Shown piece by piece: positions 8,691 through 49,955 of a stretch of 57,580 nucleotides of DNA. The stretch lies in assembly GCA_026709535.1 (NCBI GenBank), contig JAPOST010000145.1, positions 1 to 57,580 on the forward strand, written 5' to 3'. The notes under the pieces are model-generated. The model did no database searches. It was not told where the DNA came from and saw only the letters and a program-made list of their open reading frames with translations. Within the stretch, counting starts at the first letter, position 1; every line of letters begins with the position of its first letter. A program made the translations under genes and the position numbers. This DNA comes from Rhodospirillaceae bacterium. GTDB lineage: Bacteria; Pseudomonadota; Alphaproteobacteria; Bin65.

Positions 8691-9024
8691 ACTCATTCAA
8701 AGTTCTGGCGGCAGTCACCGCTTGGCTGTCTTGCCTGCCTAAAGCAACGTATGATCGCTTGAATCCATAGATCGAATGCCTGCCGGTTGTCCAGATTGGC
8801 GGCAACAGTGCATTCATGACTACTGGTCCGGGTTAAAATTCAACCGATACTGTCATGTCAGGCGGCAGAAGAGGTATCGTCATTTCAACGAATTCAAGGA
8901 ACAAAGACGCCCAATTCTCTGCAATTTTCTCGGTTCCTGTGCCGAGGACTGGTCGTAGTGCCGCGGTTGCGGCTGGAGTGTCTAGACTGTACAGTGGAAC
9001 TGGTCATTCAATCGGGAGAAGTGA
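8691..9024. other. leader region before the SelW-like gene
   Basis: About 330 bases with no recognisable gene. It ends with GGGAGAAG, a good ribosome-binding site for the selenoprotein gene that starts at 9025. Confidence 0.4.
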
Positions 9025-9246
9025 ATGAAATTCAGGATTGAATACTGCGGCGTCTGAAACTACGAATCTCGGGCGCTCCGTGTGAGCGACAGGTTCTCGC
9101 AAATCGATGGCGCCGAGATCGAGTTGGTCAATAGCGCAGGCGGCGTTTTCGAGATCAGCATTGATGGCGAACTGATGTTTTCCAAAAAGGCGACCGGTCG
9201 TTTCCCGGAAGAACACGAGATAGAGGGAATCGCCGCGCGGGCGTGA
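9025..9246 (+). CDS. SelW/Rdx-family selenoprotein, CGVU (in-frame TGA)
   Basis: Reading from the ATG at 9025 gives 73 residues with a single internal TGA at 9055-9057. The product is a SelT/SelW/SelH (Rdx) protein: it begins MKFRIEYCGV-U-NYESRA, then has GGVFEISIDGELMFSKK and ends ATGRFPEEHEIEG, all family hallmarks. The TGA falls exactly at the second redox residue of the family CxxC/CxxU motif (C8, U11), so it most likely encodes selenocysteine rather than stop. GGGAGAAG lies just upstream of the ATG. A bSECIS-like hairpin follows the TGA at the right distance. Rdx proteins are small thioredoxin-like redox proteins. The alternative is a Cys codon mutated to stop, but every other codon of the gene is intact. 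Conventional calling would miss this gene. Confidence 0.85.
9055..9096 (+). promoter_or_regulatory. bSECIS-like hairpin for selenocysteine insertion
   Basis: Directly after the TGA (9055-9057) the RNA can fold. Lower stem GAATCT (9064-9069) pairs with AGGTTC (9091-9096), with one G-U. A small internal loop follows, then upper stem CGCTC (9074-9078) pairs with GAGCG (9084-9088), closing a 5-nt loop CGTGT. The loop starts 21 nt after the TGA and has G at its second position. Both fit published bacterial SECIS rules (UGA-loop distance 16-37 nt, a G among the first two loop bases). Binding by SelB is inferred. Confidence 0.7.
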
Positions 9247-44235: not shown

Positions 44236-44622
44236 ATGGCGGTTAAAGTGAACTCTGTAAGCGCACGTCGAGCCTTGGAGGCTCTGGGCGCAAATATCAA
44301 GACGGCGCGCCTGAAGCGGCGGATTTCCGTGAAGGGTTTTGCGGAACGGATCGGCGTGTCCGAAAGCACGGTGGCCCGGCTCGAGAAGGGCGATGACGGT
44401 GTGAGCATCGGCACGCTCGCCATGGCGTGTCTCGTCCTGGGCGAGATCGACCGCATCTCAGACTTCCTGGACGCGGGCACAGACGACACCGGGTTGCTGC
44501 TCGACCGGGAAAGTCTGCCCAAGCGGATCGATCGCAAGCGCAAGCCGAAGTCGTTGAGCAAAGGCCAGGACAAGACCACTCCGATTGCCGATAGCGATGA
44601 CGAGGAAGGGGTCGGTTTCTGA
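44236..44622 (+). CDS. hipB: HipB-like XRE-family antitoxin/repressor
   Basis: A 128-residue protein with an XRE helix-turn-helix at about residues 15-75 (IKTARLKRRISVKGFAERIG, VSESTVARLEKG) and a basic C-terminal tail. Its TGA stop overlaps the hipA ATG (TGATG). HipB proteins neutralise HipA and repress the operon. It is longer than E. coli HipB (88 residues) because of the tail after residue 90. Confidence 0.88.
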   Translation: MAVKVNSVSARRALEALGANIKTARLKRRISVKGFAERIGVSESTVARLEKGDDGVSIGTLAMACLVLGEIDRISDFLDAGTDDTGLLLDRESLPKRIDRKRKPKSLSKGQDKTTPIADSDDEEGVGF

Positions 44623-45851
44623 TGCCCGAGGCCATCGTCGCGCTTGGTGAAGGAAAACGGATCGTCGGACGCCTGCGCTTTGAGAGCGATGGGCGCCGCC
44701 AGCATTCGCAATTCGAATATGATGCGGACTGGCTCGCCGCCGAGGATTGCTTCGCGCTCGCACCGGGACTGCCGCTGCGCGAGGGAAGCCACTTTTCATC
44801 CGGGAAGGATGACAAGCGCTCGGCGTTGCCGGGATGCTTTGCCGATGCGGCGCCGGATTCCTGGGGACGCGCGCTGATGACCAAGGCCTTGGGCGGTGGT
44901 CTCAGCGAGTTTGATTATCTCGTCCTGTCAGATGACCGCACCCGGCAAGGGGCGCTGCGTTTCCTCAGCGAGGACATGGAGCCGCTGTCCGATCTCACGC
45001 CGCCCATCCCCCGGCTGGTCGAGCTTGAGCGCCTGCGCACGCTTGCGCAGCGCTTCGAGCAGGACCCGGGTGGCGCGGAAGAGGAAGCGCGTGACCTTGC
45101 CGGTGTCGCCGGATCGCTGGGTGGCGCACGACCGAAAGCCAACGTCGAAGGCGACGGACATCTCTGGATCGCCAAGTTCACGTCCGCACAGGACACCAAA
45201 CCGGTCGAGCGCGCCGAAGTGGCGACGCTGAAACTGGCGCGCATGTGCGGGCTACGCGTGGCCGAGGCCCGGCTTGAGCTGCGCGACAGCGACAGTCCCA
45301 TCGCGTTGATCCGCCGGTTCGACCGCCGCGGCGACACGCGCATTCCCTATATCTCGGCGCGCACCGCGCTCGACTGGCAGAGCGAGGAAGGCGGGTTCTA
45401 CACCGACATCGCCGATGTGATCCGCCAGATTTCGAGCAAGCCGGTCGAGGATCTGCATGAACTCTGGCGACGGATCGTCTTCACCATCCTTGTGTCAAAC
45501 AAGGACGATCACTTGAAGAACCACGGGTTCATCTATGCTGGTGGTGACCGGTGGCGCTTGTCACCGGCTTTCGACATAAATCCATCCCCCTCCCGGCATC
45601 GGGTGCTTGAGACAGGGATCATCCAGGGCGGATCGTTCGAGGCGTCGATGGAGATTGCACTTGAAGCAAGCGAGTTTTTTGACCTTGCACCCACCGATGC
45701 CAGGCAGCAGACATTTCAGATGGCCGAGACGCTCGCCAACAACTGGAAGCGAACCCTGCGAGATGAAGGCGCAACGCCGGACGATCTGCGGACCTACGTG
45801 GATGCGTTTGAGCATGTCGAGGCCGAGAAAGCGCTCAAATCAGGTGGCTAA
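44622..45851 (+). CDS. hipA: HipA-family serine/threonine kinase toxin
   Basis: A 409-residue HipA. The glycine-rich SLGGARPKANVEGDG forms the ATP-binding loop, then IAKFTSAQD and ERAEVATLKLARMCG. The catalytic loop VSNKDDHLKNHGF (about residues 290-302) and the metal-binding SPAFDINPSP are intact. HipA kinases phosphorylate translation factors such as glutamyl-tRNA synthetase and induce dormancy; the target here is unknown. The downstream HEPN-like gene begins inside its last codons. Confidence 0.92.
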   Translation: MPEAIVALGEGKRIVGRLRFESDGRRQHSQFEYDADWLAAEDCFALAPGLPLREGSHFSSGKDDKRSALPGCFADAAPDSWGRALMTKALGGGLSEFDYLVLSDDRTRQGALRFLSEDMEPLSDLTPPIPRLVELERLRTLAQRFEQDPGGAEEEARDLAGVAGSLGGARPKANVEGDGHLWIAKFTSAQDTKPVERAEVATLKLARMCGLRVAEARLELRDSDSPIALIRRFDRRGDTRIPYISARTALDWQSEEGGFYTDIADVIRQISSKPVEDLHELWRRIVFTILVSNKDDHLKNHGFIYAGGDRWRLSPAFDINPSPSRHRVLETGIIQGGSFEASMEIALEASEFFDLAPTDARQQTFQMAETLANNWKRTLRDEGATPDDLRTYVDAFEHVEAEKALKSGG

Positions 45852-48842: not shown

Positions 48843-49955
48843 ATGACTTATTTTTGGCAAACCGATAGCTGGCCTGACTTCACATATAAACTGGACGCTT
48901 CATGCGAAAAATATCTCTATGCGTTCGCCCGGAGTGCTGGATATGTGGGCGGGCTCATCGAAGGTCTGGAGCGCAGAGATCAAACTGAAATGCATCTCCA
49001 ACTGATGGTCGCCGAAGCGATCAAGACTTCAGAGATCGAGGGCGAGTATCTAAACCGAGATGATGTCATCTCATCCGTCCGCAATAATTTGGGGTTGAGT
49101 GCGGCCCCTGTGACTATTGGTGATAAACGCGCTGAAGGTGTCGCAGAATTGATGATAGCAGTACGCAATGGGTATGAAACGCGTCTCAGTGAAGCGATCC
49201 TGTTTGACTGGCATTCAAAATTGCTGGGTTGGGACCGGCGTGCGAAGGTAGGCTGCTGGCGTACCCATGAAGAGCCGATGCAGGTCATTTCAGGCCCTGT
49301 CGGAAAGGAGACGGTTCACTTCGAAGCGCCGCCGTCAGAGCGCGTTCCAAGCGAAATGAAGCGTTTCATCAGGTGGTTTAATGCAACGATGCCGGGCGAG
49401 GCAATCGAGATTGACAAACCGCCAATTCGTGCTGCGCTCGTGCATCTTTACTTTGAAAGCATCCATCCCTTTGATGACGGCAATGGGCGGATTGGGCGTG
49501 CGATTTCAGAAAAAACATTATCACAGGGGCTTGGCAGGCCGGTGGTCATGAGTCTGTCAGCTGCCATTGAGGCCGACAGAAAATCATATTACGAAGAACT
49601 CAAATTAGCTCAGCGCAAGCGTGATATCAGCGCTTGGGTCTCGTTCTTCTTGCGTTTGTGCGTGGACGCGCAAGTCCAAGCCGGAGAGCAGATTCGTTTC
49701 ACGCTGCAAAAAGCAAGGCTGTTTGACTGCTTCGAGGATCGGATGAATGAGCGACAGATCCGAGTTGTCCGGCGCATGTTCGAGGAAGGCCCTGATGGTT
49801 TTGAGGGCGGCATGAGTGCCAGAAAGTATGTGTCGATTACCAAGGCATCGAAGGCGACGGCAACGCGCGACCTGCAAGGCTTGTTGGAGATGGGCGTGTT
49901 TCGATCCGAAGGTGGCGGGCGCAGTACGCGCTACGCGCTGGCACTGGATGAATAG
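48843..49955 (+). CDS. Fic family AMP-transferase with C-terminal winged helix
   Basis: A 370-residue Fic protein. The catalytic motif HPFDDGNGRIGR starts at H208. The N-terminal helix has the autoinhibitory T62-x3-E66-G67 (TSEIEG), so activity is probably self-restrained. The C-terminus (about 315-370) is a winged helix: SARKYVSITKASKATATRDL and GVFRSEGGGRSTRYAL. Fic enzymes transfer AMP to hydroxyl side chains of proteins. The palindrome ending in the start codon suggests autoregulation. Confidence 0.92.
   Translation: MTYFWQTDSWPDFTYKLDASCEKYLYAFARSAGYVGGLIEGLERRDQTEMHLQLMVAEAIKTSEIEGEYLNRDDVISSVRNNLGLSAAPVTIGDKRAEGVAELMIAVRNGYETRLSEAILFDWHSKLLGWDRRAKVGCWRTHEEPMQVISGPVGKETVHFEAPPSERVPSEMKRFIRWFNATMPGEAIEIDKPPIRAALVHLYFESIHPFDDGNGRIGRAISEKTLSQGLGRPVVMSLSAAIEADRKSYYEELKLAQRKRDISAWVSFFLRLCVDAQVQAGEQIRFTLQKARLFDCFEDRMNERQIRVVRRMFEEGPDGFEGGMSARKYVSITKASKATATRDLQGLLEMGVFRSEGGGRSTRYALALDE

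Follow-up and report, generated by a model that had tools for sequence, protein, structure and literature searches.

In the established bacterial pathway for selenocysteine (Sec) insertion, SelB bound to a hairpin in the mRNA brings Sec-tRNA(Sec) to a UGA codon located just upstream. The hairpin, referred to as bSECIS, lies shortly 3' of the UGA and has a conserved structure with a small apical loop that carries a G in its first two positions.

SelW-like bacterial selenoproteins (PF10262, TIGR02174, NF041051) are small Rdx proteins with a CxxU motif and a bSECIS just 3' of the UGA, of which few Cys forms occur in Sec users (PMC1088965, PMC1794560, PMC2398784). They constitute the most abundant selenoprotein family both in the Sargasso Sea set, with 48 genes carrying CxxU and a bSECIS (PMC1088965), and in the GOS data, with 427 (PMC2398784). 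A 2026 review tabulates them as PF10262 with CxxU, alongside NF041238, a family of alkylhydroperoxidase-related (seleno)proteins (PMC13188914). In the Sec-decoding Alphaproteobacteria sequenced by 2006, FdhA was reported to be the only selenoprotein (Zhang et al. 2006, PMC1794560).

The locus described here lies in a stretch of 57,580 nucleotides from a Rhodospirillaceae bacterium (contig JAPOST010000145.1), in the following termed the window. Positions 9025-9246 of its forward strand almost certainly represent a SelW-like selenoprotein gene, whose UGA would be decoded as selenocysteine via SelB and a downstream hairpin to give a CGVU-containing Rdx protein. There is no essential difference from the SelW-like selenoproteins described so far; the score lies slightly below the NF041051 cut-off, and the gene is placed in an alphaproteobacterial lineage.

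A selW-like gene with an in-frame TGA

The gene starts with an ATG at 9025, which is preceded at a distance of 6 nt by a Shine-Dalgarno-like GGGAG (9014-9018); a GGAG is found at about the equivalent site 5' of selW in the other members of the genus. It ends with a TGA stop at 9244-9246, the same codon at which homology stops across the genus. With the in-frame TGA at 9055-9057 read as U, the 73-residue product is MKFRIEYCGVUNYESRALRVSDRFSQIDGAEIELVNSAGGVFEISIDGELMFSKKATGRFPEEHEIEGIAARA, in which the predicted selenocysteine, residue 11, occupies the second redox position of a CxxC motif and aligns with Cys of homologues. This read-through product matches the Pfam Rdx family (PF10262) with an E-value of 1.4e-16 and 60.9 bits (cut-off 22.6) and the NCBIfam model TIGR02174 (CXXU_selWTH) with 2.2e-14 and 53.5 bits (cut-off 34.2). 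An earlier note had described the locus as a 73-residue Rdx gene that is intact except for this one TGA and is preceded by a good ribosome-binding site, and the sequence and both family models bear this out. Against the equivalog NF041051 (SelTWH_Campy), the protein scores 80.5 bits, under the cut-off of 88 bits; judged by this score, it is a close relative that stands outside that equivalog. Solved structures among its sequence relatives include those of Atu0228 (2fa8), C17orf37 (2ljk) and SelW (2npb).

In the window, selW is neighbored by an RNase E/G-like gene, yacG, a nitronate-monooxygenase-like gene and others, none of which adjoins selW elsewhere in the genus. Since the neighbors differ across the genus, the neighborhood comparison yielded no operon partner. 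A GST-like match near some selW copies was rejected as synteny, being only ~26% identical. An Rfam search of the window matched only three tRNAs, and the only match of a plasmid search was the tRNA-Phe region near selW. Further along the window, the ORF at 44622-45851 resembles a HipA-type kinase and that at 48843-49955 a protein with a Fic domain, as judged by eye from the translations.

The hairpin downstream of the TGA

Within the coding sequence, a candidate bSECIS hairpin (CGCTC-CGTGT-GAGCG) spans 9074-9088 on the forward strand, with a stem formed by 9074-9078 and 9084-9088 and the loop CGUGU at 9079-9083. According to the earlier note, a hairpin with a five-base loop begins 21 nt 3' of the TGA. 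The loop size holds, but 21 nt is the distance to the loop, while the stem already starts 16 nt after the TGA. As claimed, one of the first two loop positions is a G, namely the second. The element shows the small loop, the G position, the closeness to the UGA and the conserved structure of a bSECIS.

Single-sequence folding energy of the window hairpin is not better than that of shuffled sequences (z from +0.6 to -1.2). Moreover, 2.3% of all TGA triplets in the window precede a hairpin with at least five Watson-Crick pairs and a 5-nt loop that has a G at position 1 or 2, a share that rises to 8.8% when the loop may measure 3-8 nt and that spans 2.3-44% depending on stringency. In view of the unremarkable folding energy and this sizeable chance rate, neither was counted as proof of a bSECIS. 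By itself, the hairpin is weak evidence; it becomes strong through conservation and covariation. These were assessed in a gap-free alignment of 27 distinct relatives over 48 columns from the TGA. The stem columns 20-24/30-34 are paired in 98.5% of cells, compared with 31-62% in slid controls. Fourteen cells are compensatory and two of the five pairs show compensatory changes: pair 21-33 occurs as CG (14 relatives), GC (9) or UA (3), and pair 23-31 as UA (25) or GC (2). None of 500 shuffles matched the covariation score, and RNAalifold, unaided, recovered the identical five stem pairs. The loop start CGUG is invariant over the 27 relatives, all of which use CGT for the Arg codon in the loop; the Arg codon three codons further 5' varies between CGG, CGC, AGA, AGG, CGA and CGT. 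In Cys-type homologues, the hairpin RNA pattern is absent.

Conservation of the TGA and selenocysteine machinery

A survey of 289 related genomes, mostly of the same class, found selW in a TGA form in 24 and in a stop-free form in 11. In the former, the TGA is the sole early in-frame stop; in the latter, the Sec position is occupied by TGC in all six sequences read. The TGA is kept by each of the six remaining genus members (6/6), whose frames stay open past it, so that the further disabling mutations in close relatives that the earlier note had named as refuting evidence did not turn up. Beyond the genus, the TGA form occurs in 17 further genomes of the class and, according to a scan of species genomes, in three gammaproteobacterial MAGs as well as in Calditrichaeota, Neomarinimicrobiota, Planctomycetota and Thermohalobacter. 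Between the window copy and the genus, dN/dS 3' of the TGA amounts to 0.11-0.23, which indicates that this part of selW is under purifying selection in the genus.

The SelW proteins of the gammaproteobacterial MAGs (L051, L053, L054) are 70-75% identical to that of the window, whereas those of other alphaproteobacterial families reach ~62% or less. Possible explanations for this likeness are horizontal transfer between symbionts or a binning error. The names of member records, e.g. Spongia_Bin9, suggest that the genus is sponge-associated.

The genome to which the window belongs (3.67 Mb, 96% complete) contains all of selA, selB, selC and selD, whose absence would have spoken against selenocysteine according to the earlier note. 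On contig 203, selA (566 bits, 4e-170), selB (398 bits, 3e-119) and selC lie side by side in this order, and the tRNA-Sec (72 bits) is called by ARAGORN as tRNA-SeC with the anticodon tca. A tRNA-Sec nested within selB is known from other Alphaproteobacteria (PMC8124441); such an arrangement was rejected here, as selC is located ~30 nt past the selB stop. SelD (285 bits, 7.9e-85) is part of an Ndh-SelD fusion on contig 40, a 754-residue ORF with Pyr_redox_2 and AIRS domains of a type that has already been described (PMC2398784). Across the surveyed genomes, selA scores over the cut-off in 23/24 TGA-type but in 0/11 stop-free genomes (Fisher p = 2.9e-8, a value that overstates independence because the genomes are related). 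The sole TGA-type genome without selA (G021) is 77% complete, and this incompleteness most simply accounts for the gap.

These data bear on three other ways to read the locus. Since a single substitution converts the Cys codons TGC and TGT into TGA, a chance nonsense mutation or a sequencing error could have turned a Cys-type Rdx gene into a pseudogene. Yet the identical TGA recurs in every genus member, in independently assembled relatives and in other phyla, no other early stop is present, purifying selection extends past the TGA and the Sec machinery is in place; the probability of a pseudogene is therefore minute. The earlier note had likewise preferred a selenoprotein over a random stop mutation. 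The frame that stays open across the TGA would also fit a genome-wide code change or unspecific suppression, by which TGA encodes an ordinary amino acid. However, selB, an AhpD-type gene and selW itself terminate in TGA, and no in-frame TGA was seen at non-Cys positions of conserved genes among the genes examined. The TGA position moreover aligns with the catalytic Cys, Cys-type relatives having TGC or TGT in this column as an alignment with Rdx proteins proposed earlier revealed, the covarying hairpin follows downstream, and tRNA-Sec, selA, selB and selD are all present, which makes a reassigned TGA exceedingly improbable.

Finally, translation might be confined to the first ten codons or to a downstream ORF of 54 residues starting at a GTG (9082-9246), the hairpin being unrelated. 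This ORF does exist mechanically, but neither the CxxU motif nor the beginning of the Rdx domain is part of it, and the ten codons upstream of the TGA read MKFRIEYCxx in the close relatives as well, where they follow a ribosome-binding site. We regard this reading as having next to no chance of being correct. The data show the gene, a TGA that is conserved, a hairpin that covaries and a genome equipped with the machinery; from these we infer that the UGA of the SelW-like gene is decoded in vivo. SelB carrying Sec-tRNA(Sec) would bind the hairpin 17-31 nt 3' of the UGA, and selenocysteine would be inserted there instead of termination. The predicted product is a small protein of thioredoxin-like (Rdx) fold with CGVU, in which Cys8 and Sec11 may act as a thiol/selenol redox center. 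By analogy with its family, it is most likely a small glutathione- or thioredoxin-linked reductase.

Further selenoprotein genes and significance

The pattern TGA-N(12-30)-CTCCGTGYGAG has exactly two matches in the 3.67 Mb genome, both in Sec-type genes, and the reversed pattern, used as a control over the same genome, has none. The second site belongs to a 380-residue AhpD-related ORF (L014:168-1310; G000 C40:8657-9799) that adjoins the Ndh-SelD fusion, carries an in-frame TGA at its CxxU motif (CVYU) and matches NF041238 (AhpD_rel_CFYUT) with 2.7e-136. Contigs 168 and 82 carry two paralogues (L086 and L087) with one TGA each at CxxU and with CTC/GAG hairpins, and the TGA at CxxU of the AhpD-related genes is kept in homologues throughout the genus. 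These three copies of NF041238 share with selW the TGA-read CxxU and the CTC-nGnnn-GAG type of hairpin, but they belong to an unrelated family of the CMD/AhpD type with ~355-380 residues. The best FdhA match in the genome (G000:C78:729-2780, L074) scores over the cut-off and has no in-frame stop; hence, this FdhA is not a TGA-encoded selenoprotein, in contrast to the Sec use centered on FdhA that is reported for many Alphaproteobacteria. Conceivably, the genus keeps the Sec trait for small thiol-redox proteins, i.e. SelW and three AhpD-related CxxU proteins, rather than for formate dehydrogenase, and its unrelated selenoprotein genes share a CUC-CGUGY-GAG consensus set by the local SelB. We give this proposal an even chance.

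As SelW-like CxxU selenoproteins with a bSECIS were described in 2005-2008, the window gene adds to an established family, and it changes no concept, these proteins being among the most abundant selenoproteins in marine data (PMC1088965, PMC2398784). Genes of this sort are broken up or overlooked by standard callers, and the one in the window is a clean and well-supported example. That the genus differs from the FdhA-only Alphaproteobacteria (PMC1794560) is a modest extension, and selW enlarges an alphaproteobacterial selenoproteome of which little has been documented and which is seemingly not built on formate dehydrogenase.
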